From NCBI RefSeq assembly GCF_023634065.1, contig NZ_JALKCV010000017.1:1-64000 (forward strand): DNA of 64,000 nt. Direction: 5' to 3'. The notes below the pieces were generated by a model. That model worked only from the letters and a program-made list of their open reading frames with translations, made no database searches and was not told the DNA's origin. The position numbers were made by a program, and so were the translations under genes. The stretch comes from Microbulbifer litoralis (GTDB lineage: Bacteria > Pseudomonadota > Gammaproteobacteria > Pseudomonadales > Cellvibrionaceae). Below, piece by piece: positions 21,632 through 63,200 of the stretch (position 1 is the first letter of the stretch; the number at the start of each line of letters is the position of its first letter).

Positions 21632-21846
21632 GTGCGGTGGCGGCCCTGGTACCGGGAGCTATTTGCGGGACACGCCGTGAATACATCCCTGTAGGCTTGT
21701 CGGCGAGGTCCCTCTCGCCGACAGTCCCGCAAATAGCTCCCGGCACCAGGGCCTTCGCATCGGCATTGGAATTTTTATCGGGCCGGGGGATAAGAATCAA
21801 CAAGCCGATGCGAAGGCGCTGAGTTCGCTTACCAGCACTAAGCCAA
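21632..21846. repeat. palindromic repeat family, copy A
   Basis: This copy has two hairpins. In hairpin 1 the left arm (21645-21671) pairs with the right arm (21724-21750) over 27 nt with one mismatch. Within it, TGTCGGCGAG (21698-21707) and CTCGCCGACA (21714-21723) form an inner 10-bp stem with a 6-nt loop, and the unpaired 21672-21697 holds the family core ACGCCGTGAATACATCCCTG. In hairpin 2, GCCTTCGCATCGGC (21751-21764) pairs perfectly with GCCGATGCGAAGGC (21804-21817). It fills the 369-nt gap between a DUF885 gene and a thiolase gene that converge. No protein gene is visible. Confidence 0.85.
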
Positions 21847-21932
21847 ACTACCCTGCCCATTTAAAAAACGACGAATACGAGAAGTCGACATTACGGGCGC
21901 CACTGTGCGGGGAACAAAGCCCCCGCGAAAAA

Positions 21933-23123
21933 TCAAACCCGCTCAATAGCCACCGCAGTCGCCTCACCGCCGCCGATACACAGGCTGGCAACCCCCTTCT
22001 TCAGGTCGCGTTTCTCCAGCGCCGCCAGCAGCGTCACCAGGATACGCGCCCCGCTGGCCCCCAGCGGGTGGCCGAGGGCGCAGGCGCCGCCGTTGACGTT
22101 GACCTTGTCGTGGGGCAGGCCCAGCTCGCGCATCGCGGACATGGTGACCACGGCGAAGGCCTCGTTGATTTCGTACAGATCCACCTCGTCCGCGGACCAG
22201 CCGGTTTTCTCCAGCAGCGCCTGCATCGCACCCACCGGCGCGGTGGTGAACCACTCCGGTTCTTGGGCGAACTGGGTCTGGCCGCGCAGCACCGCCAGCG
22301 GCTTCAGGCCGCGGGCCTTCGCCTCGCTCTCGCGCATCAGCACAAGCGCGGCCGCGCCGTCGGAAATGGAACTGGCGTTGGCGGCCGTCACGGTACCGTC
22401 CTTGCGGAAGGCGGGTTTCAGTTGCGGGATCTTGTCCGGGCGCGCGCTGCCCGGGCCCTCGTCGACACTGACAACCGTATCGCCGCGGCGGGTGGAAACC
22501 GTCACCGGCGCGATCTCGCGCTCGAAAGCACCGCTCTCGATCGCCCCGTTGGCGCGGGCCAGGGATTCGATCGCGAAATTGTCCTGCTCCTCGCGAGTAA
22601 AACTGTACTTGTCCGCGGTGCACTCGGCGAAAGTGCCCATCAGCTTACCGTCGTAGGCGTTTTCCAGGCCGTCCAGGAACATATGGTCCAGTACCTCTCC
22701 GTGACCCAGGCGCATGCCGCCGCGGGCCTTGGGCAACAGGTAGGGCGCGTTGCTCATGCTCTCCATACCACCGGCGACCACGACTTTGGCATCGCCGGCG
22801 AGCAGCGCATCGCGGCCCATCATTACCGTCTTCATGCCGGAACCGCACACCTTGTTGACGGTGCTGGTGGGCGTACCGGCGGGGATACCGGCCCCCAGTG
22901 CCGCCTGGCGTGCCGGCGCCTGGCCGAGACCGGCGGGCAGTACACAACCCATCAGTACCTCGCTGACATCGGCCGCGGCCACACCCGCATCCTCCAGCGC
23001 CGCGCGGATGGCCGCGGCGCCCAGTTCCGGCGCACTCACCGCGGACAGGGCACCCTGCATGGCGCCCATCGGCGTGCGCGCCAAACCGACTATCACTACC
23101 GGATCTGAAGTTACATCGCTCAT
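21933..23123 (-). CDS. acetyl-CoA C-acyltransferase (thiolase)
   Basis: This 396-residue enzyme forms or cleaves beta-ketoacyl-CoA by a Claisen reaction. The active-site residues are in place: nucleophile Cys93 in V-C-G-S-G-M-K, a His in N-G-G-A-C-A-L-G-H-P-L-G, and the second Cys in C-I-G-G-G-E-A. Length and motifs fit the biosynthetic/acetoacetyl-CoA (AtoB/PhaA-like) type, but substrate length cannot be decided. The ATG at 23123 (MSDVTSDPVV) has GGGAGC upstream. It stands alone; promoter elements shared with the divergent LemA gene are not clear. Confidence 0.9.
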   Translation of the reverse strand: MSDVTSDPVVIVGLARTPMGAMQGALSAVSAPELGAAAIRAALEDAGVAAADVSEVLMGCVLPAGLGQAPARQAALGAGIPAGTPTSTVNKVCGSGMKTVMMGRDALLAGDAKVVVAGGMESMSNAPYLLPKARGGMRLGHGEVLDHMFLDGLENAYDGKLMGTFAECTADKYSFTREEQDNFAIESLARANGAIESGAFEREIAPVTVSTRRGDTVVSVDEGPGSARPDKIPQLKPAFRKDGTVTAANASSISDGAAALVLMRESEAKARGLKPLAVLRGQTQFAQEPEWFTTAPVGAMQALLEKTGWSADEVDLYEINEAFAVVTMSAMRELGLPHDKVNVNGGACALGHPLGASGARILVTLLAALEKRDLKKGVASLCIGGGEATAVAIERV

Positions 23124-23297
23124 ACTGGCTGCTCCCAAAATCTGTGCCGCCGCGGATTCGGCGCCGGCAGTAATCGTTATTGCCGCGACATTATAACCGA
23201 AGCGGTCCCCTCCGCGGCTATCCGCCCTTGGCAGTATGTCCGTCTCGCCATCGTGATAATATCGGTGCCAGCAAACACAATAAGGGCGAAATGCAAT

Positions 23298-23894
23298 ATG
23301 GAGATTTCAACCGTTGTCTGGCTGGTCGCCATCGCCGCACTGCTGTTCTACACAGTCGGCATCCACAACAAACTGGTTTCCCTGAAAAACCGTTATGAAA
23401 ACGCCTTTGCGCAGATCGAGGTGCAGCTGAAACGCCGTTACGACCTGATCCCGAATCTGGTCGAGACCGCCCGCGGCTACCTGAAACACGAGCGCGAGAC
23501 CCTGGAGGCGGTGATCAGTGCCCGCAATAGCGCCCTGGCCGGTCTCAGGCACGCCGCCGACAACCCGGGCAACCCGAACGCCATCGCCGACCTGGGTCAC
23601 GCCGAGGGGGCACTGGCCGGCGCCCTGGGGCGGCTGAATGTCGTCATGGAGGCCTACCCGGACCTGAAGGCCAACCAGAACATGATGCAGCTGACCGAGG
23701 AACTGACCAGCACCGAGAACAAGGTCGCCTTCGCGCGCCAGGCCTTCAACGACTCGGTGATGGCCTACAACATCTACAAGCAGAGTTTTCCGCCGGTGTT
23801 CTTCGCCGGCTTCTTCGGCCATCGCGCCGATGCCCGGCTGCTGGAATTCGCCGATTCCGAGGCCATGCAGGCCGCGCCCAGGATCGAGTTCTGA
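23298..23894 (+). CDS. LemA family protein
   Basis: This 198-residue protein has one N-terminal membrane helix (about 6-20) and a LemA helical bundle. The signatures are N-R-Y-E-N-A-F-A-Q-I-E-V-Q-L-K-R-R-Y-D-L-I-P-N-L-V (32-56) and Y-P-x-L-K-A-N-Q-N. LemA proteins are membrane-anchored and of uncertain role, and often sit beside a membrane metalloprotease, as here. The ATG at 23298 matches the family; an out-of-frame ATG lies 7 nt upstream. The M48 protease gene begins 23 nt downstream, so the two form an operon. Confidence 0.9.
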   Translation: MEISTVVWLVAIAALLFYTVGIHNKLVSLKNRYENAFAQIEVQLKRRYDLIPNLVETARGYLKHERETLEAVISARNSALAGLRHAADNPGNPNAIADLGHAEGALAGALGRLNVVMEAYPDLKANQNMMQLTEELTSTENKVAFARQAFNDSVMAYNIYKQSFPPVFFAGFFGHRADARLLEFADSEAMQAAPRIEF

Positions 23895-23917
23895 TTCGGG
23901 AAGCACCGGGGTTTTAA

Positions 23918-25882
23918 ATGAATTTTTTCGAATACCAACACAGGGCGCGCCGCAACAGCGGCCTGCTGACGGGCCTGTTCGCACTGGCCGTGACGCTGCT
24001 GATCAGCATCACCACCCTGCTCGCCGCGGCCATGGTGGCCTGGTCCCGCGGCCAGGCCTTTTCGCTGTCCGGTATCGGGCGGATACTGGGCTGGGACGCG
24101 GTGGCATCCATCGCGTTGGCTATCGCCGCGGTGATTGCCCTGGGCAGTCTCTACAAGCTGCGCCAGCTGGCCGCCGGCGGGCGCGCGGTGGCGGAATCCC
24201 TCGGCGGGCGCAAGATCAATGTATCGCAGCACTCGGCCGCCGAGCGGCGCGCGCTGAATGTGGTGGAGGAAATGGCGATCGCGTCCGGCACCCCGGTACC
24301 GGATGTGTACCTGCTCGACGACGATGCCATCAACGCCTTTGCCGCCGGCTACCAACCCGGCGATGCCGTGATCGGCCTGACTCGCGGCTGTATCGAGCAA
24401 CTGGATCGCGATGAACTGCAGGGGGTGGTGGCGCACGAGTTCAGCCATATCCTCAACGGCGATATGCGCCTGAATATCCGTATTGTCGGCCTCCTGAACG
24501 GCATCCTGATCATCGGCCTGCTGGGCTACTGGCTGTTGCGCGGCAGCACTTTCGGCTCCGGGCGCGGCAACCGCGGCCGCGTGGCACTGCTCGGCATCGG
24601 CGCCGGCCTGGTGGCAATCGGCTACACCGGCACCTTCTTCGGCAACCTGATCAAATCCGCCGTCAGCCGCCAGCGGGAATACCTGGCCGATGCCTCGGCC
24701 GTGCAGTTTACCCGCAACAACGCCGGTATCGCCGGTGCGCTGAAAAAAATCGGCGGCTACAGCGGCGGCTCGCAGCTGAAAGCCGGCCGCGCGGCGGAAT
24801 TCAGCCATCTGTATTTCGCCAGCGGCCTGAAAAAGTCGTTTGCCAACCTGTTTTCCACCCACCCGCCACTGGCGGACCGCATCGGGCGGCTGGATCCCCA
24901 CTGGAACGGCCATTTTTCCCGCACCGGCGAGGGCGCGGGCCTGTCCGTGAGCACGGCGCAGGATGCCCAGGTGATGGGAGTGGCGCCGGGGTCCCCGGGA
25001 GCGGCGACCTTCGACACGATCGCCAGCGCCATCGACAACCGTATCGGCAACCCGGACGAACAGCAGGTGCACTACGGCCGCCAGCTGCTCGCGAGCGTAC
25101 CCGCCGCGCTGAAACAGGCCGCACACGATCCGTTTGCCGCGCGCGCCCTGATCTACCACCTGCTGCTCTGCGAAGATCCACAGCAGCGGGAACAGCAGTG
25201 GCAACTGCTACAGGGAATGACCCACCCCGCGGTTTTCCGCGAGATGCAGAAACTGGAACCGGCGCTGGCGACGCTGCCGCCCAATGCGCGCCTGCCGCTG
25301 CTCGATCTCTGCGTACCGGCACTGAAATCGCTGGTTCCGCAACAGTACCAGGTGTTCAAGCGCAACCTGATCAGGCTGCTGCGCAGCGACAACCGCGTGG
25401 AGCTTTGGGAATGGGCGCTGTACCGGGTACTGATGCACGCCCTCGAGGGCACCCCGGACCGGCAGCGCCTGTCGGGGAAAAGCAATGCGCAGCGGGACGC
25501 CAACGCCTTCCTGCTCGCCGCCATCGCCCACACCGGGCAGGCTCACTACCTCGACGCCAAACGCGCTTACGAGACAGGCCTGAACAGCCTGCGGCAGGCA
25601 ATCACGCCGTTGCCGGCGGCCGCCGATATCACCCTGCAGCGACTCGACAAGGCCCTGGCCATCGCGGCTGCGGCGACACCACTGCGCAAACCGGCGCTGC
25701 TGAAAGCCATGGCGGCCACCGCAGCACACGACGGCATCATCGAAGCGCGGGAGGTGGAATTGCTGCGGGCGGTCGCCGACAGCCTGGACTGCCCGATACC
25801 TCCGATTCCGGGCAATACGCCATTACCGGCGGACCGGAACGCGCGCCGGCGGCAGGGCGATGCCGCCAACGTCGACCACTGA
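23918..25882 (+). CDS. M48-family membrane metalloprotease with C-terminal extension
   Basis: This 654-residue protein has two N-terminal membrane helices (about 18-42, 60-78) and a zinc-protease domain with HEFSH (173-177) and the downstream zinc Glu in R-E-Y-L-A-D-A-S. Further hydrophobic segments flank the site, as in HtpX-like enzymes. The C-terminal 300 or so residues are not part of the protease core. The final stretch A-A-T-A-A-H-D-G-I-I-E-A-R-E-V-E-L-L-R-A-V-A ends in C-P-I-P-P and resembles the tail of TerB-like or stress-related helical domains. It is co-transcribed with lemA, which suggests membrane-protein quality control. Confidence 0.88.
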   Translation: MNFFEYQHRARRNSGLLTGLFALAVTLLISITTLLAAAMVAWSRGQAFSLSGIGRILGWDAVASIALAIAAVIALGSLYKLRQLAAGGRAVAESLGGRKINVSQHSAAERRALNVVEEMAIASGTPVPDVYLLDDDAINAFAAGYQPGDAVIGLTRGCIEQLDRDELQGVVAHEFSHILNGDMRLNIRIVGLLNGILIIGLLGYWLLRGSTFGSGRGNRGRVALLGIGAGLVAIGYTGTFFGNLIKSAVSRQREYLADASAVQFTRNNAGIAGALKKIGGYSGGSQLKAGRAAEFSHLYFASGLKKSFANLFSTHPPLADRIGRLDPHWNGHFSRTGEGAGLSVSTAQDAQVMGVAPGSPGAATFDTIASAIDNRIGNPDEQQVHYGRQLLASVPAALKQAAHDPFAARALIYHLLLCEDPQQREQQWQLLQGMTHPAVFREMQKLEPALATLPPNARLPLLDLCVPALKSLVPQQYQVFKRNLIRLLRSDNRVELWEWALYRVLMHALEGTPDRQRLSGKSNAQRDANAFLLAAIAHTGQAHYLDAKRAYETGLNSLRQAITPLPAAADITLQRLDKALAIAAAATPLRKPALLKAMAATAAHDGIIEAREVELLRAVADSLDCPIPPIPGNTPLPADRNARRRQGDAANVDH

Positions 25883-25887
25883 ACGGA

Positions 25888-26502
25888 TCAATGCTGGTAG
25901 ACGGGTCCTATGCCCATGGTCCACAGGATCACTGAGCCGACCATCACGGTCACCATCATGACCAGCGCTACGGTGATGACCGCCCCGGCGTAGAGAAAGG
26001 CGCGCTCCTTGCCCATATTCATCAGGATCGGAATTCCCTCGTAGATCAGGTAGACGGAGTAAATCCCCGCCAGGCCGATCACTGCGACCGCGAGCCACAC
26101 ATGGGGGTAGAGGAGAATGAGACTGGCGATAAAAATCGGCGTGGTGACGAATACCGCGAGGGCCGTGCCCTCATAGTGGCGCGTTGCCTCGTCATCCTCG
26201 ACACCGTAGGAGCGGGCCATCCAGTTGATGAATTCGCCCAGCAGATAGACCCCGAGCAGGATCGCGAAGTACATGACCACGGCCAGTACCGCGGCGCTGT
26301 TGGGGGTCAGCCGGCTCAGGTGCCCGCCCAGCTCGAACCCCACCCGGGTGACACCGATATAAGCGGCCACACTGGGGATCAGAGCCAGGATCGGCACGTG
26401 GCTGAGATACACCTGGAGGAAGGAGTGCCGGTCGGCGCGGATCGCTTCCCACTCCTTGTCGGGGTTGGTGAAGATACCGATGGTATGGCTGAGCAGGCGC
26501 AC
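25888..26502 (-). CDS. Yip1-family membrane protein
   Basis: This 204-residue integral membrane protein has about five helices. The N-terminal signature is I-F-T-N-P-D-K-E-W-E-A-I-R, seen at the start of bacterial Yip1 (PF04893) proteins, followed by helices near 32-52, 68-90, 112-130, 138-157 and 172-195. The GTG at 26502 is chosen because AGGGAGA precedes it by 6 nt and the family begins M-R-L-L-S-H. Its function is unknown. It converges on the M48 gene (5-nt gap). Confidence 0.82.
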   Translation of the reverse strand: MRLLSHTIGIFTNPDKEWEAIRADRHSFLQVYLSHVPILALIPSVAAYIGVTRVGFELGGHLSRLTPNSAAVLAVVMYFAILLGVYLLGEFINWMARSYGVEDDEATRHYEGTALAVFVTTPIFIASLILLYPHVWLAVAVIGLAGIYSVYLIYEGIPILMNMGKERAFLYAGAVITVALVMMVTVMVGSVILWTMGIGPVYQH

Positions 26503-26631
26503 ACTGTCTCTCCCTTTGCTGGCCCTGCTAGCAGTATCGGGGCCCGGGAACAGATTCACCAATGGAAAACAGGAATAAGACGCCATTTTGTCGCGCGCCT
26601 GTTCCCTGCCCCCAAGCAAGTTGTCCGGCGA

Positions 26632-27834
26632 TCACGATTTGGCGGTACAGACCCGGTTGCGGCCACCGCGCTTGGCCCGATACAGCGCCTTGTCGGCAGC
26701 CTGCAGCACCTCGGTGGGCGACTTCATCCCGGCACTGCTGGAGGCGATGCCGACACTCACCGTCGTCCTGATCACCTTGCCGCCGCCCTGCCCCCGGCGA
26801 CCGCGGGCCTTGGCGTCGCTCTTGCGCGAGCGACCGGCCGAACGCAGCCGCAGCGGGTAGTCGGCGATCTTCTCGCGCATACGCTCCAGCGACTGCTGCG
26901 CCCGCTCGCGATCGCGGCCGGGCACCACCACCACGAACTCCTCGCCACCGTAGCGGAACGCGTGCCCACCGCCGTGGCGCGCGATCTGCGCCGCGACCAT
27001 CCGCAGCGCCTGGTCACCCACCTGGTGGCCGTGGCGGTCGTTGAGCTTCTTGAAATGGTCGATATCCACCACGGCAATACTGAAGTGGCGCCCGAGCGTA
27101 AGCAGGTAGCGGCTGTAGGCCCGCCTCGACGGGATACCGGTCAGGTCGTCGCGAAACGCCAGCTCGTACACAGTGCGCACCGCCAGTATCAGCAACAGGC
27201 CGCCGATCACCAGCGCAAACAGGGGCAGCGACGCCGGCATCCCACCGAACACGGAACCCAGCACGAGCAGCAGGATACAGGTGAGCAGCGCGGCACCGGT
27301 CTGGTCGGCACGGCGTATCCAGGCCGCCAGGACAACCGGCACGGCGCCGGCCAGAAGCAGGTCCGCCGCGGTGTATCCATCCAGCAGGGATGCCGGCAGG
27401 CCGCTGCCCGGCAGTGGCAGTCCGCCCGTCAGCCAGCGGGCACAGCACTGGCGCAGGAAGAAGAAGGCGGCCACTTGCGCAGCGACTAGCGCCCCGAGCA
27501 GGAGACCGAAGCCGTTCAGCGGGCTGCGGTCGCGCGTCCAGGCCAGTACCGCCAGGTTGAATGCGAGCAGGGCCAGCAGCAGCTCGGCTTCCGCCGCATC
27601 GATGAACGAGGTATCGAGCGCCAGGTAGCAGCCCAGCACGAGCAGCGCGGCAACCCCCACACGGCTGGCCTTGAAGAACACGCCCAGGGCCGCCGCACTA
27701 CCAAGCAGGGCCAACGGCAGCGCCGGCAGCGGCAGTGTATCGAGATCGAGCCATTGGAAATGCTGCGCAACCAGTGCCGCCAGCGGCAGAACCGGCAGCC
27801 AGCCGTGGCGCAGCCACTGCGTGATAGAAAGCAT
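26632..27834 (-). CDS. membrane diguanylate cyclase (GGDEF) with a basic insertion
   Basis: About 400 residues. The N-terminal half has seven or eight membrane helices (about 12-235) and the C-terminal half is a GGDEF domain starting near F-R-D-D-L-T-G-I-P-S-R-R-A. The active-site signature is R-Y-G-G-E-E-F, the catalytically acceptable GGEEF form, so c-di-GMP synthesis is predicted. No R-x-x-D inhibitory site precedes it. An unusual Arg/Lys/Gly-rich insertion of about 25 residues (about 325-350) lies before the final V-S-V-G-I-A strand. The ATG at 27834 gives the membrane domain its full length, though its RBS is poor. The membrane sensor is of no named family that I recognise. Confidence 0.85.
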   Translation of the reverse strand: MLSITQWLRHGWLPVLPLAALVAQHFQWLDLDTLPLPALPLALLGSAAALGVFFKASRVGVAALLVLGCYLALDTSFIDAAEAELLLALLAFNLAVLAWTRDRSPLNGFGLLLGALVAAQVAAFFFLRQCCARWLTGGLPLPGSGLPASLLDGYTAADLLLAGAVPVVLAAWIRRADQTGAALLTCILLLVLGSVFGGMPASLPLFALVIGGLLLILAVRTVYELAFRDDLTGIPSRRAYSRYLLTLGRHFSIAVVDIDHFKKLNDRHGHQVGDQALRMVAAQIARHGGGHAFRYGGEEFVVVVPGRDRERAQQSLERMREKIADYPLRLRSAGRSRKSDAKARGRRGQGGGKVIRTTVSVGIASSSAGMKSPTEVLQAADKALYRAKRGGRNRVCTAKS

Positions 27835-27881
27835 GTTGGTGTTATTTTTCTGAATCGGGCCCGCCCGGACACGGCGGGGCT

Positions 27882-27914
27882 CCGGACACCGGCGGCGGAG
27901 CCACCGGTGTCCGG
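27882..27914 (-). terminator. strong hairpin after sspB
   Basis: CCGGACACCGG (27882-27892) and CCGGTGTCCGG (27904-27914) form a perfect 11-bp stem, 3 nt past the sspB stop on the minus strand. It lacks an immediate U-run, so it is either a weak terminator or a 3'-end stabiliser of sspA-sspB mRNA. Confidence 0.45.
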
Positions 27915-27917
27915 CAA

Positions 27918-28340
27918 TTATTTGACGACCCGCAGAGAGGGCTTCCTGGAGGACTTCCTGCCCAGGCTGGTGGGCGGCGTGGGCTCGGGTGGCTCGGGCG
28001 TCTCCTCCGCCTCGAACACCATACCCTGGCCATTCTCGCGCGCGTAGATGCCCACCACGGCCCCCACCGGTACCTGGATATCCGTGGGCACCCCGCCGAA
28101 GCGGGCGTTGAAGCGGATGGCGTAGTTGTCCATCGTCAGGCCCGCGACCGCGGTTTCGGACACGTTGAGCACTATCTGGCCGTCCTCGTTGACGTGCTGT
28201 TGCGGCACCAGCACACCGGCCAGGTGGGTGTCCACGAGAATATAGGGAGTGCACCGGTTGTCGGTTATCCACTCGTAAAACGCCCGCAGGATATACGGGC
28301 GGTTGGATGTCATGTCCGGTTTACTCAAGTCACTCTCCAT
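27918..28340 (-). CDS. sspB: ClpXP specificity-enhancing factor SspB
   Basis: About 140 residues. The substrate-binding domain is clear: R-P-Y-I-L-R-A-F-Y-E-W-I-T-D-N, then V-R/I-R-F-N-A-R-F-G-G-V-P and I-Y-A-R-E-N-G-Q-G. A flexible Glu/Pro-rich linker follows, and the C-terminal L-R-V-V-K tail is the ClpX-tethering motif. SspB delivers ssrA-tagged proteins to ClpXP. It lies 76 nt downstream of sspA, the conserved pairing. The start at 28340 has AGG 8 nt upstream; an internal ATG at 28313 (MTSNRPY) is an alternative. Confidence 0.94.
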   Translation of the reverse strand: MESDLSKPDMTSNRPYILRAFYEWITDNRCTPYILVDTHLAGVLVPQQHVNEDGQIVLNVSETAVAGLTMDNYAIRFNARFGGVPTDIQVPVGAVVGIYARENGQGMVFEAEETPEPPEPTPPTSLGRKSSRKPSLRVVK

Positions 28341-28416
28341 TAAAGTTGCCTGCGAGGGGATCTGTGCCCGCCGTCCGCGGCAGGGCGCCAATCCGCGCCC
28401 TGGGGCGGTCCGCCTG

Positions 28417-29043: not shown

Positions 29044-29066
29044 CTTCTAACTACCTCGAACTAATC

Positions 29067-29086: not shown

Positions 29087-29103
29087 TGTGTCAATAAACG
29101 CAC

Positions 29104-33374: not shown

Positions 33375-33600
33375 AGCTGGCGCGGTGGCGGCTCCGCTAC
33401 CGGGGGCGCCTTGCGGGACACGCCGTGAATCCATCCTTGGAGGCTTGTCCGCGAGGTCCCTCTCGCAGACAGTCCCGCAAGGCGCCCCCGGCATCGAAGC
33501 CTTCGCATTTAACCTCTGAGTTCTGTACCAACTGCCGATAAAATCACCATAGGTCGATGCGAAGGCCCTGCTGCCCCGAAGCCAACTTACTGCCACCCGC
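33375..33600. repeat. palindromic repeat family, copy B
   Basis: In hairpin 1 the left arm (33400-33419) pairs perfectly over 20 bp with the right arm (33472-33491). The inner stem TGTCCGCGAG/CTCGCAGACA has one mismatch. The core reads GTGAATCCATCCTTGGAGGC. In hairpin 2, GCCTTCGCAT (33499-33508) pairs with ATGCGAAGGC (33557-33566). It fills the gap between the rplM promoter and zapE. Confidence 0.85.
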
Positions 33601-53601: not shown

Positions 53602-53606
53602 CTGTC

Positions 53607-53934
53607 GGGGCGAGCCTTGTGTTCGCCCTGTTTGTTAGGGGCATTCCAGGCTGTTGTTAGAGAGCTTGGTGGCGGTGCTGCTACCGATAGCGGTTTGCCA
53701 GACACGCGGTGAATACATCCCTGTACGCTCTAATCGACATCCCTGTCTCATAAGGTCTGGCAAACCGCTATCGGTATCAGCACCTTCGCATCGACATCGG
53801 ATTTCTATCTGGCTACCTGGATAGCTCAAAAGGAGCACTGAAACTGATGCGAAGGCCCTGCCGCCACGGGGCTGGCTTACAAGCATCAGTCTGAAGTGCC
53901 ACAAATATAAAGGGCGAGCACAAAGGTTCGCCCC
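53607..53934. repeat. palindromic repeat family, copy C, inside an outer inverted repeat
   Basis: In hairpin 1 the left arm (53674-53703) and right arm (53755-53784) match over 30 nt with one mismatch. The core GTGAATACATCCCTGTA is present (53710-53726), but the inner stem is not. In hairpin 2, CCTTCGCATC (53783-53792) pairs with GATGCGAAGG (53846-53855). Around this is an imperfect outer repeat: GGGGCGAGCC at 53607-53616 against GGTTCGCCCC at 53925-53934. The whole 342-nt gap is repeat; no gene is visible. Confidence 0.85.
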
Positions 53935-53943
53935 AATCACCAA

Positions 53944-54916: not shown

Positions 54917-57900
54917 TCAGCGGCCCCCGGCTGCCGGCGCCGCCGGCAGGAAACGGTCGGCTTCCGGCTGCGGACGGCTGTCCGAGACCGCCGGCGGCGC
55001 CCCGGTACTGTCGGGCGGCGGGCGCCGGCGGGCCTCCGCCTCGGATCCCTGGCGCTGCGCGCCATCGCCGTCGAACAGCTTGTCGAAGCGCACCTCCGGC
55101 TCGTCCCATTTGCCGCTGATGCGGTAACTGACACTGGCCATGTTATCCACCTGCTTCTTGAACGCCTTGCTGATCAGGTAAACCCCCGCCGCCGCCGGCA
55201 GGCCGCCCGCCAGCGCCGCGATCAGCGCCAGGTTATTGCCCACCGGCAGGGTCGCCACCAGGGTCAGATTCAGGTCCTCGCGCTTCAGGTTGACCCGCCC
55301 GGCCATCTGCAGCTCGCTGGTGGGCCCCTCCACCTGGATCGGCACCGCGATCAGCAACTCGCCATCGCCCTCGAAAAAGACCTCACCGCGCACCTGGTCA
55401 AAGGCCATGCCGTTCTGGTACAGATCGGAGAAGTCCAGCCGCAGGCGGCGCGCCCAGGTATCGAAGTTGAACAGCGACAGCAGGCGCAGCACGGCGGAGC
55501 CGGCGCTGTCGGTGGCGCGCATGAAACGGCCGTCGCGGATATCGATCTTCAGTTCGCCGGACAGGCGATTGGCCGCCACCTGGGCCGGCGAGCCGTCCCA
55601 GCGCAGCGCCGTATCGAAAATGGCGGTCTCGCTCTCGATGGCCGGCTCCTGGCCCCAGGCCCGCTGCACGTCGGCCAGGTCATCCGCCAGCAGGCGGCCG
55701 ATAAACTGGGAGGATTCGTTGCCCTCCTCGTCGCGCAACCACATCAACTGGGCACCCAGCTTGTTGTCGCCCCGGCCGCGCCCCTCGACGCGCACACCGC
55801 GCGCGGCGCCGCGGATATCGCTGATCACCAGCCGCGACTGCGACGGCCGCAGGCGGAACGACCAGCGACCCATGTCCTCTTCGCCGACCCGCAGGCTGTC
55901 GGTACTGAAATCCACCTGCGGCAACTGCGTGAAATCGAAACCGGCCCAGGCATCGGTTTCCTCCTTCTTCGCCGCGCCGCCGCCCTGCGACGATTGTGGC
56001 GCGGGCAGGTGCAGGTGGCTCAGGTCCAGTTGCAGCGGCGTGGCCCCGTTCATGACGCCACTGACACTGCCCGACGCCATGGCACTGTCGAACTGCAACT
56101 GCCAGTCGGCCCCGAGACCGCGTCCGCGGACGTGGATATGTTCGATATCCACCGCACCCAGCTGCAGCCGGTCGGTGCTCAGGTCGAGGGTGATCGGCAG
56201 CGGATTGTCGATGTCCGCCGCGGCTGCGCCGCCACTGTTTTCATGGTCGGATTCGCCGCCCTTGCCACCGAACACTGCCAGCGACTGCTGCCAGCGCGGC
56301 AGGTCGATCTGCGACAGGTCGCCGCTGATCGCCAGGCCCCGCTCCCGCGGCAGCTCGGCCTCGGCATTGAGGGCGATGGCAGCGCGGTCGACAACGCCGT
56401 CCACCTGCCAGAACTGCCCCTGCAGGTGTTCGCCGTAACTGAGATTGAACAGGCTGCCCTGCTCGCCGATCGGTACCCGCAGTACGTAGCGGGTTTTCTC
56501 GTCCGCCACCTTGCCCAGCGGCGGCGGCAGGTCCACCGCGACACCCTCCAGGTCGGACGTCATTTCGAAGATGGCCGAGTAGGGTTTCTCCTTGCTGGCC
56601 GCGGGGATGGTCACCAGCGCGCGGTAGTCGAAGACACCGTCCAGCCAGGCCAGCTCGGGGCGACCGCTCCAGTCCTGCACCGCCTCGATGCTGTTGCTGC
56701 CATCGATCACCACCTGGGTGTCCCGCTCGTCGCCGTCACCGATATGCTCGATACGCGCCTGCAGCGGCCGACCCCAGAGATCGCCGCTCAGGCGGGTGCC
56801 GGCCAGGCCGTCGTCGCTGTCGTAATGGATGCGCCCGCCCAGCCCATCGATATCCAGGCGCAGCTTGTCGAGACGCAGGTCGCCGCCCTGCAATTGCAGC
56901 TGTACATTCTGGCGCGCCGGCAGTTCGGCGCCGCCGAGGGGCTGGGACAGGGTCAGGTCGCCACTGATACGGCCGCCCAGTTGCCAGTCGTCAAAGGCGC
57001 TGCCCAGGCGCTCGCGCAGCGGCGATTCGCGCAGCAGTCGCAGGCCGTCGGATGCCGGCCCCTCCAGCCTGGCATGCACCCCCAGCAGGGAGCCGTCGCC
57101 GGTGGGGCTGGGGGTCACTCCCACCTCGATATCGCGCGCGGCGATATTCCACAGCGTCGCCGCCTCGGCGTTGACCAGTACATTGCGGTCGTTGACCAGC
57201 AGGCGCGCGGAGATATTCCTCGCCGCCGGCCAGCCCGGCGCATAGTCGAGCGCGCCGTCGGTCACATCCGCCGCCAACTGCACTGTCTGCCGCTCCGGGT
57301 GGTCGCCCAGGGCCAGCAGTTCGGGATCCTCGCCCTCGCGATAACTGCTGCCGCGGTAGATGAATCCCGCGCGCGAGACGCGGCCGGGATTGTCGCTGCC
57401 CAGGCCATCGGCCAGCCAATTGCGCAGGTCGTCGCTGACGGTGTGGGGCACCAGTTGTCCCTGCGCCGACACCGGTGCGTCGCGCAGCCCCAGTGCCAGG
57501 GTGAATTCGGCCGGGCGGCTGTGGGGCACGAACGGCAGCTGCAGCAGGAACTGGCCGCGGATGTCGCCCTGCTCGCCGCCGAGCCGCAACAGCCCGGAGT
57601 TGACCTGTACCGAGTTGTTGTCGCGATCGACCTGCCAGGCGACGGTGCCGCCGACACGGGTGAATTCGAAAGCGTTCTCATAGAGTTTGGGGAACTGGAT
57701 ACGAACGCCGTCGCCCCCCGCCAGCTGCGCGAAACCGTCGCCGCCGCGCATTTCCAGGTAGCCGTTCAATCCCTGCACCGCCGGGGCACCGCGGTGGGCG
57801 GCGGCAGTCAGGTCGCGCAGGTTGGCGCTCAGGGCAATTCCACCGTCGGCGCCGCGGGCAAACTGTACCCGCTCCAGGCGACCGGAGGGCGCGAGCGCCT

Positions 57901-59122
57901 GCAGCCACTCCGCGGCCGGCCCCTCCAGCAGGGCCATTCGTTCCAGAATGCGGCTCCAGGCCCCCAGTTCGATGCGGTCCACCGACAATTGCAGGCCGCT
58001 CTCCGCGCTGTTGCGGGCCTGCAGGTTTAGCGGAGGCATCGGCAGGTCGCGCCAGTCCAGCTCTACCTGCTGCAGCGCCAGGCGCCAGTTGCCGCCCGGC
58101 TGCCAGTGGCCGGAAAGATCGCCGGACAGGCCGCGCAGGGGCTCCAGCAGCGAAGGCTCGCGCTCGGCGCCGGTTTCCCGCGCGGCATCCACTTCCAGTT
58201 GCGCCAGTTCCAGGCGGCCGCGCAGGCGGTAGCCGCTGTCGGCCTCGCTGTGCAGCCAGAGGCTGCCGCGGGCCATTTTGCGGCCACGCCAGTGGTATTT
58301 TTCCGGCAGGGGCGTCAGTTGCTGCAACAGCGCGATGGTGTCCGCATCCACCAGCATGTCGTTCAACTGCACATAGCCATTCAGTGAGAAATCGTCGCGG
58401 TCGCGCGGGTTGCCGCGCCCCTCGAGGATCAGGCGCAGCGTCTCGCCCTGCCCCAGAAGTGCGTGCCCGGAGGCACCATCGGAATCCTGTGCAACGCCGG
58501 CAGTGGAGGAAATAAAGGCCCGCGCCGTCAGGCGGTGGAAGTCGCCGGCGTTTTCCAGCTGTATTCGCGGCAGGTTCATCTCGGCCCTGGCGCCGTCGGC
58601 GAGGCGCAGGCGGATACTGGCATTGCGCACCTGGACTTTGGGGCCCAACTGGAAGATGCGCGCCGGGTCGCCCAGGCGCGGGGCACCCGCAGCCTCTTCC
58701 GCCGCGGCGCCATCGGCGCCGGGCGGGAATCCCTCGATATGCCAGCCGCCGCTTTCGGTACGGCTCAACTCGGCGGAGAAATCCCGCACCTGCAGGTTTT
58801 TCCACACCAGTTCGCGGTTCCAAAGGCTCGAGAGCAGGTCCAGGTGAAACAGGCCGTAGCCCATATGCACTTCGCCGTTTTCCCCCAGGCGCAACTCGTC
58901 CAGTTGCAGCGCCACTTCGAGGGCCCGCCAACGCAGCGACAGCCGTTCCATCTGCACCGGCACACCGAGGCGCGCCGACAGCCAGTTGCTGATCTGCGGG
59001 CGGTAGTCCTCCACCAGCGGCGAAAGCATGCGACCGGTCTGCACCAGGATGGCGAGGCTGATGACCAGGGTGATGGTCAGCAGCCAGAACTTGCGGGCGA
59101 GCCAGCGCAGAGTCCCCGTCAT
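54917..59122 (-). CDS. yhdP: YhdP family AsmA-like lipid transport protein
   Basis: This 1401-residue protein has one N-terminal membrane anchor (about 10-28) and a very long beta-rich periplasmic body. DUF3971 and AsmA-C-type segments are recognisable (D-I-R-D-G-R-F-M-R-A-T-D-S-A-G near 1195, and the L-x-R-L-L-S-L-F-N-F that follows). YhdP, TamB and YdbH are proposed bridges moving phospholipid to the outer membrane. E. coli YhdP is 1266 residues, so this one is longer, partly through a Pro/Arg-rich tail. It is in its usual order with rng and maf. Confidence 0.92.
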   Translation of the reverse strand: MTGTLRWLARKFWLLTITLVISLAILVQTGRMLSPLVEDYRPQISNWLSARLGVPVQMERLSLRWRALEVALQLDELRLGENGEVHMGYGLFHLDLLSSLWNRELVWKNLQVRDFSAELSRTESGGWHIEGFPPGADGAAAEEAAGAPRLGDPARIFQLGPKVQVRNASIRLRLADGARAEMNLPRIQLENAGDFHRLTARAFISSTAGVAQDSDGASGHALLGQGETLRLILEGRGNPRDRDDFSLNGYVQLNDMLVDADTIALLQQLTPLPEKYHWRGRKMARGSLWLHSEADSGYRLRGRLELAQLEVDAARETGAEREPSLLEPLRGLSGDLSGHWQPGGNWRLALQQVELDWRDLPMPPLNLQARNSAESGLQLSVDRIELGAWSRILERMALLEGPAAEWLQALAPSGRLERVQFARGADGGIALSANLRDLTAAAHRGAPAVQGLNGYLEMRGGDGFAQLAGGDGVRIQFPKLYENAFEFTRVGGTVAWQVDRDNNSVQVNSGLLRLGGEQGDIRGQFLLQLPFVPHSRPAEFTLALGLRDAPVSAQGQLVPHTVSDDLRNWLADGLGSDNPGRVSRAGFIYRGSSYREGEDPELLALGDHPERQTVQLAADVTDGALDYAPGWPAARNISARLLVNDRNVLVNAEAATLWNIAARDIEVGVTPSPTGDGSLLGVHARLEGPASDGLRLLRESPLRERLGSAFDDWQLGGRISGDLTLSQPLGGAELPARQNVQLQLQGGDLRLDKLRLDIDGLGGRIHYDSDDGLAGTRLSGDLWGRPLQARIEHIGDGDERDTQVVIDGSNSIEAVQDWSGRPELAWLDGVFDYRALVTIPAASKEKPYSAIFEMTSDLEGVAVDLPPPLGKVADEKTRYVLRVPIGEQGSLFNLSYGEHLQGQFWQVDGVVDRAAIALNAEAELPRERGLAISGDLSQIDLPRWQQSLAVFGGKGGESDHENSGGAAAADIDNPLPITLDLSTDRLQLGAVDIEHIHVRGRGLGADWQLQFDSAMASGSVSGVMNGATPLQLDLSHLHLPAPQSSQGGGAAKKEETDAWAGFDFTQLPQVDFSTDSLRVGEEDMGRWSFRLRPSQSRLVISDIRGAARGVRVEGRGRGDNKLGAQLMWLRDEEGNESSQFIGRLLADDLADVQRAWGQEPAIESETAIFDTALRWDGSPAQVAANRLSGELKIDIRDGRFMRATDSAGSAVLRLLSLFNFDTWARRLRLDFSDLYQNGMAFDQVRGEVFFEGDGELLIAVPIQVEGPTSELQMAGRVNLKREDLNLTLVATLPVGNNLALIAALAGGLPAAAGVYLISKAFKKQVDNMASVSYRISGKWDEPEVRFDKLFDGDGAQRQGSEAEARRRPPPDSTGAPPAVSDSRPQPEADRFLPAAPAAGGR

Positions 59123-59284
59123 CGGAAGCCTCCGTGATAACGGGGCTCAACAAACAATCCGGACCCGAGACCCGGTAACACGAGAGAAACCTGTACCAGG
59201 ACGCGGCCTGCTGCCCGCGCCAGCGCTTTCGTATTGCTCCCGGCGCGCCTGGCCGAATCGGCAGGAGCGTGCTTGCAGGCGAAC

Positions 59285-59341
59285 CCGGGTCCCGAGTCCC
59301 GAGTCCCGAGTCCCGCTTGCGTCCGAAGTCCCGAGTCCCGG
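59285..59341. repeat. GAGTCCC direct repeats upstream of yhdP
   Basis: Roughly four units of CCCGAGT at 59287-59314, then, after a short interruption, two more at 59327-59341. This is the complement of the perfect GGGACTC array at 44979-45034. It lies in the 228-nt gap between rng and yhdP. Confidence 0.8.
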
Positions 59342-59350
59342 GCGCCGCCT

Positions 59351-60841
59351 TCACACAAGAACAATGTCATACTGCTCCTGGTTGTAAATGGGCTCCACCT
59401 GGAACTGGATGGGCCGGCCGATAAACTCTTCCAGGTCGGCCACATTGGCCGATTCCTCGTCCAGCAACAGGTCGATCACCACCTGGCTGGCGAGCACCAT
59501 GATCTTCTCGCTGTCGTAGGCGCGGGCCTCGCGAATGGTTTCGCGAAAAATCTCGTAACAGACGGTCTCCGCGCTCTTCAGGGTACCGCGCCCCATGCAA
59601 ACCGGGCAGGGCTCGCACAGGAACTGGCCCAGGGATTCCCGCGTGCGCTTGCGGGTCATCTCCACCAGACCCAGTTCGGACACACCGGTGATGCTGGTCT
59701 TGGCGTGGTCCCGCTCCAGTGTCTTTTCCAGCGTGCGCAGTACCTGGCGCTGGTGCTCCGTATCCTTCATATCGATAAAGTCGATGATGATGATGCCGCC
59801 CAGGTTGCGCAGCCGCAGCTGCCGGGCGATGGCGGTGGCCGCCTCCAGGTTGGTCTTGAAGATAGTCTCTTCGAGATTGCGATGTCCGACAAATGCGCCG
59901 GTGTTGACATCGATGGTACTCATCGCCTCGGTCTGCTCGACGATCAGGTAGCCACCGGACTTCAGGGTCACCTTGTTGTGCAGCGCCCTGTGGATTTCCT
60001 CCTCGACGCCATAGAGATCGAACAGCGGTCGCTCGCCGGGGTAGTGCTCCAGGCGCCCGGCAATTTCCGGCGCGTACTTGCCGGCAAACTCCGCCGCGCG
60101 GCCGTGGGCCTCGCGGGAGTCGATGCGGATCTTCTCCGTGTGGGGCCGCGCCAGGTCGCGCAGCGCGCGCATGAACAGCGGCAGGTCCTCGTAGATCACC
60201 GACGGCAGCGACCGCGACTTGATGCGGTTTTCCAGCTCGCCCCAGAGTTTGTACAGGAAGGGGATATCGCGCAGCAGCTCGTCCTCGCTGACACCCTCGG
60301 CCACGGTGCGCAGGATAAAGCCCCCATCGCCGCTCTGCCCCTCCTCCGCCAGCTTGGCCGAGGCCTGCTCCACCAGCTGTCGCAGGCGCTCGCGCTCGCC
60401 GTCGTCCTCGATACGATTGGAGATCCCGATATGCCGGGTCTGCGGCATATACACCAGGTAGCGGGCCGAGACGGACAGGTGGGTGGTCAGGCGCGCGCCC
60501 TTGCTGCTGATCGGGTCCTTGACCACCTGCACCACCAGCGACTGGCCCTCGCGCACCAGGGCGCGGATATCCGCCACCTCGGCATTCTCGCGGGATTCCA
60601 TGCCCTCCTCGTCCAGCGGCGCTATGTCGGAGGCGTGGATAAAACCGGCCCGCTCCAGGCCGATATCGACGAATGCCGCCTGCATGCCGGGCAACACGCG
60701 CACCACCTTGCCCTTGTAGATATTGCCGACGATGCCGCGGCGCGCGCTGCGCTCCAGGTAGACTTCCTGTAACACACCGTTTTCCACCAGCGCGACGCGG
60801 GTCTCCATCGGGGCGACATTGATCAATAATTCTTCGCTCAC
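59351..60841 (-). CDS. rng: ribonuclease G
   Basis: This 496-residue endoribonuclease of the RNase E/G family has an S1 domain (about 35-125; [23 protein letters not shown]), the catalytic Asp region I-I-I-I-D-F-I-D-M, and the Zn-link C-E-P-C-P-V-C-M-G. It matures 16S rRNA and cuts certain mRNAs. The GTG at 60841 overlaps the maf TGA (GTGA) and has AGGA upstream. Confidence 0.96.
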
Positions 60842-61485
60842 GCATCCTTCCTGTTCGTGACTGTCTTCCCGCTCGCCGACGGCTCCCGCCAATAGGGTAT
60901 GCCCGCTTTCTCCAGCATCGGTACCAGTGCCTCCAACGGCAGGCCGACCACGTTGCTGTAGCTGCCGCTGATGGATTCCACCAGCGCCGCACCCAGCCCC
61001 TGGATGCCGTAACCGCCGGCCTTGTCGGCGGGTTCGCCGGTGCGCCAGTAGGCGTCGACCAGCCGGTGGTCGAGATGGCGGAAACGCACCCGGGTCTCCA
61101 CCAGATGTTCGAACTGGCGCCCGTCGCCGCGCAGGCAGATGGCGGTCACGACCGCGTGTTCCCGCCCGGACAGCGATCGCATCATGGATTCAAAGTCGGT
61201 GAAATCCCGCGGCTTTTCCAGCACCTGTCCGCCGGCCAGGACCAGCGTATCGGCGCCCAGGGCCCAGAGTCCGGTCGCAGGTGCACCGGCCAGCGCCAGT
61301 CCGGCGGCGGCCTTGTTGCGCGCCAGGCGCGCGACGTAGGCACGCGCTCCCTCATCCTCGCCCTGCTCTTCGGGCACATCGGGGGTCAGGCGGGAGAAGG
61401 GCACGCCGATCTGCTCCAGCAGTTCCGCGCGGCGCGGCGAGCCGGAGGCGAGGAGGAGTTGGCTGTGAGCTGGGAGTTCAGGCAC
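60838..61485 (-). CDS. maf: Maf-family nucleoside triphosphate pyrophosphatase (YhdE type)
   Basis: This 215-residue protein has the Maf signatures L-L-A-S-G-S-P-R-R (10-18), K-A near the centre, A-D-T-L-V, and [10 protein letters not shown]. It hydrolyses dTTP/UTP or modified pyrimidine NTPs; YhdE is the branch found next to rng. The GTG at 61485 is the start. It lies about 110 nt after mreD. Confidence 0.94.
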
Positions 61486-61596
61486 GGTACTGCTTATTGT
61501 TTGTCTGGATTGGAGACCGATTATAACGGCATCGATCGAAAAATGATCGCCCTTTACCCGGCTTTACTCTTCGGTTGCGACCGGTCGGTCTCCACT

Positions 61597-62076
61597 TTAC
61601 CTGACCTGCAGGCGGCCGGCCATCAGGCCCAGCCAGGGCGCCATCCAGGGCCACAGCAGGGCGCTGGTGATCGCGGGCCAGAGAAAAGTGAGGCCGGGCA
61701 CCGGCTTGCCCGCCAGGCCGTGTACCCAGTTGCCCACCACCTGGTTGATGCCGACGAGGATAAATACCCACATCAGTTGCTGGGCGGGGTTGAACGCGCG
61801 GGTGCGCTGGTAGGTGAGCAGGCTGAAGTAGGCCAGCACCGCCAGGGCCAGCGCGTGGGTGCCGAGCACCGAACCCGTGACCAGATCCTCGAGGATCCCC
61901 ACCATCCAGGCGAAGCCGACACCGAGGCTCTGCGGCATGCGCGTGATCCAGAAGATCACCAGCAGTGCGGTAAAAGACGGGCGGAACCAGAGCCAGTTGT
62001 ACGGCAGCGGCATGACTGCGAGCAGCAGTGCCAGCAGGACCGTGACGGCGATGAACCAGCGGTTATTCGCTTCCAA
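61597..62076 (-). CDS. mreD: rod shape-determining protein MreD
   Basis: This 159-residue membrane protein has five or six helices; the family marks are P-L-P-Y-N-W-L-W-F-R-P-S-F and G-I-L-E-D-L-V-T-G-S-V-L-G-T-H-A-L. It works with MreC, RodA and PBP2 in lateral wall growth. The start is TTG at 62076, overlapping the mreC end by 14 nt, so translation is coupled. Confidence 0.93.
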   Translation of the reverse strand: MEANNRWFIAVTVLLALLLAVMPLPYNWLWFRPSFTALLVIFWITRMPQSLGVGFAWMVGILEDLVTGSVLGTHALALAVLAYFSLLTYQRTRAFNPAQQLMWVFILVGINQVVGNWVHGLAGKPVPGLTFLWPAITSALLWPWMAPWLGLMAGRLQVR

Positions 62077-62929
62077 GGTCCCGCTCTCTGTCGTTGCCCT
62101 GGGCCGTATCGCGCTCTTCGATCACCGCCAGCACAAAACGGCTGCGGTTCATGCGGCCGCGCGGCTGTACTTCCGCCTCGGCAAAGGCGTGGCCGGGGTC
62201 ACGCCGCACGGAGATGACCTCGCCCACCGGGTAGCCGGCGGGAAAGCGGCCACCGAGACCGGAACTGAGCAGCAGGTCGCCCTCGCGGATATCGCTGGTA
62301 TTGGCCAGGTGGCGCAATTTGAGACGGTACAGGTCGCCGGTGCCCTCGGCCACGGCCCGCACGCTGTTGCGCAGCACCTGTACCGGGATGGCGTGGCTGG
62401 CATCGGTGATCAGCAGCACGCGGCTCGAGGAATCGCCGGCTTCGATCACCTGGCCCAGCAGGCCGCTGGCATCCATGATCGGCGTGCCCAGGCCGACACC
62501 GTCATCGCGCCCCTTGTCGATGACCAGCACGTGCTCGAGAGGATCCGGCGACACACCGATAATCTGAGCCACCAGCACCCGCTCATCGACGGAGTCCGCC
62601 GAGTTCATCAGCTCCTTGAGCTGGGTGTTCTCGGCCTTTACCGAGGCCAGCAGCTGGCTGCGCTGCTCCAGCAGCAATACCTGGCGCTTGAGGCGGCTGT
62701 TTTCTTCCAGCAGTTCCTCCCGCGAACGCAGCTGCTCCCCGGCCCAGTTGCCCACCCGATCGGGGGTATCAGTAATCCAGTAGAAGGGTGACACCAGCCC
62801 GGTGACACGCTCGCGCAGAGGCTGCAGCCAGTCGGTGTAGATGTTGATCACAATCAGCGCCGCCGCCACCAGGCCCAGCACAAGGATGCGGGATTCCGGC
62901 GAGGGGCCGCGGGTAAATAGCGGTTTGAT
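62063..62929 (-). CDS. mreC: rod shape-determining protein MreC, non-canonical start codon
   Basis: About 288 residues. It has a short cytoplasmic N-terminus, one membrane helix (about 15-33), a coiled coil (about 65-105) and the beta-domain with V-I-D-K-G, G-V-V/L-G-Q-V and S-G-L-G-G-R-F-P-x-G-Y-P. It organises the elongasome in the periplasm. The conserved N-terminal block K-P-L-F-T-R-G-P-S, matching E. coli M-K-P-I-F-S-R-G-P-S, is encoded upstream of the first ATG/GTG/TTG. Translation must therefore start at ATC (62929, with a GGGGGT box 6 nt upstream) or at CTG (62935); a TGA lies six codons further up. A GTG at 62881 would lose that block. Confidence 0.9.
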   Translation of the reverse strand: MKPLFTRGPSPESRILVLGLVAAALIVINIYTDWLQPLRERVTGLVSPFYWITDTPDRVGNWAGEQLRSREELLEENSRLKRQVLLLEQRSQLLASVKAENTQLKELMNSADSVDERVLVAQIIGVSPDPLEHVLVIDKGRDDGVGLGTPIMDASGLLGQVIEAGDSSSRVLLITDASHAIPVQVLRNSVRAVAEGTGDLYRLKLRHLANTSDIREGDLLLSSGLGGRFPAGYPVGEVISVRRDPGHAFAEAEVQPRGRMNRSRFVLAVIEERDTAQGNDRERDLGSE

Positions 62930-62996
62930 GGGCAGACCCCCGTCTACAGGTCAGTTCAGTGAGTTGTTGTTATCGGATTGTGGCCCGGTATTGACT

Positions 62997-63200
62997 TTGG
63001 CACCCTCGGGTGCCTGTAAGCGAGATCCGGGCGGCGCTGCTGCCGGTATTCGTTTGCGGGACTGTTGGCGAGAGGGGCCGAAGGCGCCGTGAATACCTGG
63101 AGCGGCCGGGCCACCTCGCCGACAAGCCTACAGGGATGTATTCACGGGGGGACGCCTAGTCCGTGTCCCGCAAACGAATACCGGTAGCAGGATCGCCCCG
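62997..63200. repeat. palindromic repeat family, copy D (inverted orientation)
   Basis: The left arm (63037-63062) and right arm (63165-63190) match over 26 nt with one mismatch. The core appears as its complement, CCTCGCCGACAAGCC-TACAGGGATGTATTCACG (63114-63146), so this copy is reversed compared with A-C. The CTTCGCAT hairpin is missing. A CACCCTCGGGTG palindrome (63001-63012) lies nearby. It fills the 307-nt gap between mreB and mreC. Confidence 0.85.

Follow-up and report, generated by a model that had tools for sequence, protein, structure and literature searches.

A dispersed gammaproteobacterial hairpin repeat with covarying stems and a strand-specific fold, possibly selected as single-stranded DNA

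Palindromic repeats whose arms differ from copy to copy and still pair raise the question of what selection maintains, and on which strand and in which molecule it is maintained. Such a repeat occurs in four copies (A, B, C, and D) in a 64,000-nt stretch of Microbulbifer litoralis DNA (contig NZ_JALKCV010000017.1, positions 1 to 64,000; hereafter the window), where an initial annotation placed them at 21632-21846, 33375-33600, 53607-53934 and, reversed, 62997-63200. All four were located at these coordinates, and a search for their shared core at 3 mismatches found 4 occurrences in the window, compared to a chance expectation of 0.02. The top strand is the strand as read, and the bottom strand is its complement. 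Each unit consists of a palindromic stem of ~25-30 bp (P1), variable in sequence, that ends in two small hairpins, hp1 and hp2. In its central part the P1 arm varies from copy to copy, and the facing arm matches each time. As had been annotated, the arms pair (ungapped, 28 bp with 1 mismatch in A, 18 bp with none in B, 28 bp with 1 in C, and 24 bp with 1 in D), and the pairing of copy B can be lengthened to 30 bp with 3 mismatches. The core, which had been described as single-stranded, is in fact a hairpin, TACA-TCCC-TGTA (hp1; TCCA-TCCT-TGGA in copy B), followed by the second small hairpin. The evidence presented here suggests, with a probability of roughly one half, a non-autonomous repeat that depends on its structure and functions through its bottom strand in the form of single-stranded DNA.

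The family is not confined to four copies, as had been supposed. The genome itself holds 64 copies of the core at ≤2 mismatches (reversed-pattern control, 0), and a covariance model built from other genera gave 89 matches there, with up to 104 candidates scored; these copies combine three tip types with several arm types. The exact 17-base core was found in at least 119 stretches of genome contigs, including Microbulbifer, Halomonas, Marinobacter, Sedimenticola, Luteimonas, Stutzerimonas, and Idiomarina among the matches listed. The names in the 80 titles listed are ones that we take to be gammaproteobacterial, one of them saying Proteobacteria only. The resulting cross-genus set is thus an incomplete sample, drawn by way of the 17-base core; of the 138 later covariance-model matches, which come from 100 of the 119 loci, 37 lack the exact core. 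A long arm palindrome was present in 96 of 118 cross-genus copies with enough flank, compared to 1 of 118 random places, and the arm sequences are unrelated between copies (mean pairwise identity 31%). In a phylum sample of 398 genomes, scanned with stricter filters and the best 10 candidates per genome, the 30 positive genomes all belong to the window's own class. Within the genus the distribution is patchy, with 38 of 40 genomes positive and from 0 to at least 104 matches each. The copies are mainly intergenic hairpins, and neighbours less than 450 bp apart were inverted in 8 cases and direct in 2, among 111 cross-genus copies.

Comparison with Rfam gave no match at the gathering score within the window, and ten element loci gave 12 weak matches, none at that score. 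No description of the family or of its core strings was found in the open-access literature searched; the part of PMC9788540 that was consulted describes two CsrA-related RNAs other than this element. Carriage by phages or plasmids was rejected, as copy A was unmatched in both the phage and the plasmid collection, and viral contigs gave a single exact core match. The element thus apparently represents a repeat family spread over much of the Gammaproteobacteria, unmatched to a named family in Rfam or in that literature.

Covariation of the stems was examined in two alignments. Arms were computed for 63 of the 65 extracted own-genome copies, two without ACAC being left out; alignment A1, which also omits L054 and window copy D, retained 61 of the 65 (60 distinct). 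Alignment A2 retained 89 of the 118 cross-genus copies, selected for an arm score of ≥11 and a tip length in range (88 distinct). The covariation score of A2 was 0.725, compared to 0.181 for shuffled partners (0 of 500 as high) and 0.248 for the best slid partner, and that of A1 was 0.512, compared to 0.159 and 0.107, respectively. In A2, 24 of the 28 pairs change on both sides, the other four being those of hp1, which are fixed by the search; in the 37 matches without the core, the hp1 stems are variable on both sides as well (TAC/GTA, CCC/GGG, TCC/GGA, CTC/GAG, and CAC/GTG). Two simpler statistics discriminate poorly: 18 (A1) and 33 (A2) of 500 shuffles were as high in further pair types, and the A2 count of pairs changed on both sides resembles that of shuffles (24 vs. 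23.3; 142 of 500). Covariation, which had been proposed from the four window copies, thus holds across genera and inside the genome, as well as in two of the five orthologous pairs (see below). The initial annotation had named a lack of further copies, or of covariation, as what would refute its proposal; further copies exist, and pair counts with shuffled and slid controls support covariation.

The strand on which the fold is maintained was revealed by the residual mismatches. A perfect palindrome is identical on both strands, and the strands differ in their mismatches only. With equal penalties, 63 of 65 own-genome and 92 of 118 cross-genus copies were kept for this test. On the top strand, A·C mismatches outnumbered G·T mismatches by 82 to 17 in the cross-genus set (46 to 7 by copy) and by 49 to 4 in the own genome (38 to 2 by copy), with both arms contributing alike (AC 43, CA 39, cross-genus). 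When 54 distinct own arms were restricted to their inner 18 bp, the ratio was 12 to 2, a figure that refers to the own genome only. Since A·C on the top strand is G·T on its complement, the bottom-strand fold is the one that is kept. A ratio of 1:1 would be expected from processes that do not distinguish the strands, among them neutral decay, the extrusion of cruciforms, and homogenization of the arms. The bias is also independent of the direction of the neighbouring genes, which were called by a simple longest-ORF rule: the G·T:A·C ratio was 8:34 (cross-genus) and 1:7 (own) where the plus strand is sense, and 3:12 and 2:14 where the minus strand is sense. Relative to genes, the element is oriented at random (own genome, 16 vs. 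16; cross-genus, 23 vs. 19). The similar bias in both gene contexts, together with the random orientation, indicates that read-through mRNA does not explain the signal, and a function in read-through mRNA was therefore rejected.

The kind of mismatch that is tolerated bears on the nature of the folded molecule. Among 103 distinct cross-genus arms, the bottom-strand mismatches comprised 95 G·T, 27 A·G, 20 A·C, and 19 G·G, the rest being 7 C·T, 6 A·A, 5 T·T, and 1 C·C. Divided by the mutational expectation at a transition bias (kappa) of 4, this spectrum ranks G·G, A·G, and G·T above A·A and T·T, these above C·T and A·C, and C·C last; at a kappa of 2.4, G·T ranks first. The mean ViennaRNA penalties for DNA give the order G·G, G·T, A·G, T·T, A·A, C·T, A·C, C·C, whereas the RNA parameters place G·U far ahead and A·G close to the bottom. 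In a one-slope model with kappa left free, the DNA energies gave the better fit, their margin over the RNA energies being 11.2 log units (4.5-19.6 when copies were bootstrapped); kappa was estimated at 3.8 under the DNA model and at 1.5 under the RNA model. The margin was 5.8 log units for the inner 20 bp, and 78 distinct arms from the genus also lean to DNA, by 1.8 log units. When the top strand was read instead, the fitted slope was negative, i.e., the wrong way round, under both parameter sets. Mismatch tolerance is thus nearer to DNA than to RNA energies, and the spectrum provides fair evidence for single-stranded DNA. The initial annotation had left an RNA stem, a cruciform, and a transposase substrate side by side; of these, the cruciform is disfavoured as a strand-symmetric structure, RNA fits the spectrum less well, and a single-stranded DNA substrate fits best.

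A mechanism that would accommodate these findings is as follows. The unit would be a T-shaped, three-way hairpin of ~100 nt, in which P1, almost free in sequence, closes hp1 and hp2. Selection would see the bottom strand in a folded, single-stranded DNA form, comparable to that of integron attC sites or repetitive extragenic palindromes (REPs). A putative enzyme would read the shape of this folded strand, together with its two GGA loops, and would move or replace the module, and copies whose bottom strand folds badly would not be propagated. The modules, often in inverted pairs, would be exchanged as whole units while their sites stay fixed. To the observations this model adds three postulates: that single-stranded DNA of the element forms in the cell, that the module is mobile, and that an enzyme acts on it. 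In its broadest form, which is put forward only tentatively, the family would be a class-wide set of structure-selected single-stranded DNA elements with a free stem, of which only the folded bottom strand is a substrate, recognized by a putative enzyme through the T-shape and the two GGA loops; the same loops would make bottom-strand transcripts likely ligands of CsrA/RsmA, and the repeat load could tune the Csr system.

Several findings weigh against a mobile single-stranded DNA. Searches for an enzyme returned none, and the tests of Y1 transposases and of reverse transcriptases were both negative. A resident reverse transcriptase is not a necessary partner: the own genome has 0 matches to one and 89 to the element, 17 of the 40 genus genomes are positive, and reverse transcriptase number does not follow copy number (rho -0.08). 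No clear target-site duplication is seen at the ends of P1, where identical 6-mers occurred in 3 of 104 cases, compared to 0.95 for re-paired flanks, and 4-mers in 18, compared to 11.2. The six in-situ compensated changes at orthologous sites (two of five pairs) fit a function at the site, or module replacement, better than mobility alone. The own-genome excess of A·C is in part one mismatch inherited by many copies. The margin of DNA over RNA hinges on the assumed transition bias, being 3.2 log units at a kappa of 2 (27.5 vs. 30.7) and 22 at a kappa of 4; the energies are ViennaRNA averages, the copies share ancestry, and the test was made post hoc on one core-conditioned sample. Finally, the CsrA site, to which most of the bottom-strand loops conform, is a signal in RNA.

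Orthologous sites revealed that modules turn over as units and that arms also change pairwise. For the three window sites, 30 of the 40 genus loci were fetched per protein, and the covariance-model scan covered both gene sides; stretches from the wrong side (L290, L291, L316, L322, L348, and L349) were left out of the comparison. Among the loci fetched, the element at sites B and D was shared with the relative G016 only (protein identity 95 and 92%), a weak match at site D (L349) being a plain GC hairpin. At site C, downstream of darP, modules are also present in G016 (84%), G039, and G027; their arms differ from the own copy and from each other, except that one G027 module resembles the own one. 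With different arms in four species, this intergenic place may be one that the element prefers, or else an old site at which modules have turned over. The G016 composites are complete, consisting of two inverted modules, in contrast to the single module of own copies B, C, and D at the corresponding places. In intact composites (own L018; L286, L315, and L345 in G016), the sequence CCTTCGCATC...GATGCGAAGG, or a variant of it, forms the junction that joins the two inverted modules. It had been annotated as a second hairpin of copies A-C; it is indeed present in all three, copy B reading CCTTCGCATT, but it is not an independent hairpin of the element. Copies A-C retain one module only and, judged from the intact composites elsewhere, have probably lost the inverted partner.

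In the window, copies A, B, and C lie on the plus strand and copy D on the minus strand. The 30-nt left arm of P1 in copy A (21642-21671) pairs with the right arm (21724-21753), with 1 mismatch over 28 bp, and encloses hp1 (TACATCCCTGTA, 21682-21693; bottom-strand loop AGGGAT) and hp2 (21698-21723; bottom-strand loop AGGGAC). Its junction, CCTTCGCATC...GATGCGAAGG, occupies 21752-21816 and would face the lost inverted module inferred from composites elsewhere. In copy B, the P1 arms (33390-33419 and 33472-33501, with a nearly identical arm at the orthologous G016 site) flank hp1 (TCCATCCTTGGA, 33430-33441), whose stem is changed on both sides relative to that of A, and hp2 (33446-33471); the junction CCTTCGCATT...GATGCGAAGG lies at 33500-33565, and the second module that is missing here is present in G016. 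Copy C comprises P1 arms at 53674-53703 and 53755-53784, hp1 at 53714-53725, hp2 (GACATCCCTGTC) at 53736-53747, and the junction CCTTCGCATC...GATGCGAAGG at 53783-53855. Copy D, between mreB-like and mreC-like genes, has its P1 left arm at 63165-63190, the core with hp1 at 63127-63145, and the right arm at 63037-63062, and its tip holds extra inserts.

Twenty G016 regions were examined, eight of which gave orthologous flanks. Among ten orthologous comparisons with G016, L248 and D were not comparable, the own copy being rearranged, and the arm difference at D was for this reason not counted as an in-situ change. The arm was the same or nearly so in three cases (L213, L256, and B), changed with compensation in two (four pairs in L250 and two in L206), and replaced by another type in two (C and L251); in L208 it is the other half of the composite that is represented. 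Five pairs of arms of the same lineage, selected by hand, contain 147 base pairs, of which six changed on both sides and are still paired and eight changed on one side. Module loss and replacement were accompanied by one real flip of a module within its flanks, that of L206/L374. Tip flipping as a general process was rejected, since of the two apparent reversals of orientation L208/L384 is better read as the loss of opposite composite halves, leaving L206/L374 as the sole real flip.

Several observations concern the surroundings of the copies. Six direct tandem units spaced by 226-229 bp lie at 788-2223 of L264, from the relative G231, where five element matches are listed with the same spacing. 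Outer ends resembling AACTCAAGTTTCGG..TT / CTCCGAAACTTGAGT around the hairpin are common to own copies L010, L013, and L016 and to the Sedimenticola copy L119, suggesting a common larger mobile frame in distant genera. Inverted ends resembling GTAACTATTCAGC flank copies L101, L122, L165, and L089 of other Gammaproteobacteria and are a further candidate for a larger frame. Tandem gagtccc runs lie close to several own copies (L014, L024, L029, L033, L035, L043, L044, and L045). The part of PMC3733652 that was consulted places H. neapolitanus CGTC-1 repeat dimers in a 41-bp palindrome containing ‘attcacg’, a string that resembles the element's conserved bottom-strand bulge UUCACG and may belong to a related frame.

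The main rival, rather unlikely on balance, is that the bottom strand is transcribed into an RNA that binds CsrA/RsmA, the two ANGGAN loops ~23 nt apart being bound by one CsrA dimer, with up to ~100 copies working either as a decoy or in local regulation and the fold being maintained by selection. Two hairpins with ANGGAN hexaloops (or AGGAN pentaloops) were found on the bottom strand of 113 of the 138 cross-genus copies and of 59 of the 61 own ones, so that two hairpin-loop sites of the CsrA type are usually present. No such loop was found on the top strand in 136 of 138 and 61 of 61 copies, respectively, and shuffled sequences had two loops in 0 of 2760 and 1 of 1220 cases and one loop in 90 and 58. 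The spacing between the GGA motifs is 22-24 nt in 110 of 113 cross-genus and 59 of 59 own copies. As 101 of the 138 copies owe their hp1 loop to the core used in the search, the other 37 provide the fairer figure: two loops in 30, one in 6, and none in 1. The closing pair of hp2 is C-G in 79 of 88 copies, while the two pairs below it vary. The sequence of hp1, UACAGGGAUGU, can be compared with the CsrA SELEX consensus RUACARGGAUGU, which, like the loop placement of the sites and the intersite optimum of >18 nt, is given in the portions of PMC7652899 and PMC4347634 that were consulted.

The distribution of csrA agrees in part with this proposal. The gene was found in all 30 element-positive genomes of the phylum sample, but csrA-positive genomes of other classes in that sample lack the element. 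Within the genus, G003, G004, G006, G009, G010, G014, G029, and G036 have 5-19 csrA matches, and the other readable genomes have 1 (G019, 2); the eight genomes with five or more are mostly element-poor (1, 1, 3, 3, 4, 7, 14, and 80 copies; Mann-Whitney p 0.004, uncorrected for kinship), and they may be one clade. An apparent absence of csrA in 5 of the 40 genus genomes (99, 2, 102, 59, and 103 element matches), with a partial match in a sixth, is unusable against CsrA, since all six stretches beside the csrA-neighbouring gene contain a masked run. The RNA reading is weakened by the random orientation relative to genes and by a mismatch bias that is similar whichever strand is sense; among 104 pairs of flanks, neither a promoter nor a terminator was found to be conserved. 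DNA energies also describe the mismatch spectrum better than RNA energies do, and 24 of 138 cross-genus and 2 of 61 own copies have a single loop only. The DNA and CsrA ideas are not exclusive: judged by its loops, any bottom-strand transcript would resemble a CsrA ligand.

The initial annotation had also proposed that the arms are homogenized by template switching during replication. This explanation, widened to include gene conversion of one inverted arm by the other, requires no function of the repeat and would account for arms that are well paired but unrelated between genera, for the compensated changes at two orthologous loci, and for the flip of L206/L374. Homogenization alone predicts no strand preference, and the strong one found (82:17 and 49:4) favours a selected fold. 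Recurrent mismatches also persist in the outer arm of many own copies, beside a well-paired, copy-specific inner arm, and the stems of hp1 and hp2 covary too while their loops mostly remain ANGGAN. Homogenization may contribute, but as a sufficient explanation it appears improbable.

The annotation had further noted a resemblance to REPs, which raises the possibility of REPs or their inverted pairs (REPINs) moved by a REP-associated tyrosine transposase (RAYT), an HUH enzyme of the Y1 type. The inverted hairpin pairs, the mainly intergenic location, the preference for a single-strand fold, and the five Y1_Tnp genes of the own genome are in keeping with this possibility, which is nonetheless quite improbable. 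No match to Y1 (PF01797, Pfam threshold) was found in three of the 40 genus genomes, which carry 50, 47, and 17 copies (G012, G021, and G035), and the core was not found at ≤5 mismatches within 1.5 kb of any of the five own Y1 genes. On these two results a RAYT was rejected as a necessary partner, and the proposed link is left unsupported. Copy number is uncorrelated with Y1 number (rho -0.06), and the hp1 end reads GTAG in 43, GTAC in 34, and GTAA in 12 of 89 copies, so that the REP tag GTAG (or CGTC) is not conserved there. A RAYT-type HUH motif has two histidines; one own Y1_Tnp-like protein (L069, 1045-1932) reads HAYVLLPNMVQII at the presumed HUH position and, to go by these residues, may have lost its catalytic motif. 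Ordinary bidirectional terminators or 3′-region RNA stabilizers are very improbable, since the placement of own copies in 19 convergent vs. 8 divergent gaps (of 64 placed) is countered by T-runs within 15 nt of the arm in only 2 of 104 cases at one flank and in 0 of 104 at the opposite flank, by an elaborate conserved tip that would be unneeded, and by a strand bias independent of gene direction.

If the bottom strand does act as single-stranded DNA, the element would add an apparently unnamed gammaproteobacterial family to the few cases in which DNA shape is selected over sequence, and would give a defined substrate with which to seek its enzyme. The residual stem-mismatch spectrum suggests a way to tell the functional strand, and DNA from RNA action, from sequence alone. 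If the CsrA-like loops matter, repeat content would be linked to a global regulator.

Among known systems, the RNAs of the CsrB/RsmZ type resemble the element in having ANGGAN hairpin loops, with a spacing that suits one CsrA dimer. They differ from it in that the element is two-site, dispersed in up to ~100 copies, randomly oriented, and has no promoter or terminator that was seen in its flanks. ERIC/IRU and other miniature inverted-repeat transposable elements are intergenic palindromic repeats of 100-300 bp in Gammaproteobacteria; compared by description only, they differ from the element, the palindrome arms of which have no common sequence across genera. REP, BIME, and REPIN sequences are, like the element, high-copy, mostly intergenic palindromes, and inverted hairpin pairs are found in both. 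REPs are 20-50 nt in length with a GTAG (or CGTC) tag, whereas the element is ~100 nt, with a three-way junction and a free stem sequence, does not keep GTAG, and can dispense with Y1 genes. Integron attC sites share with the element a variable sequence and a bottom-strand-specific single-strand fold, as seen here in the mismatch ratios of 82:17 and 49:4 and in the covariation of the arms. The attC core motif is RYYYAAC/GTTRRRY, and when the arm ends were searched in the two orientations such sites turned up in 0 of 104 and 1 of 104 cases, respectively. The element, without attC core sites, is dispersed and carries two fixed-loop hairpins at its tip. In the parts of the sources that were consulted, TnpA-REP (RAYT) recognizes single-strand DNA hairpins (PMC8266576, PMC3733652), and the bottom-strand single-strand fold is what matters in attC, the sites lacking sequence conservation and being recognized by structure (PMC2727003, PMC2117344). 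The best reading of this comparison is that the element works like an attC site or a REP and belongs to neither.

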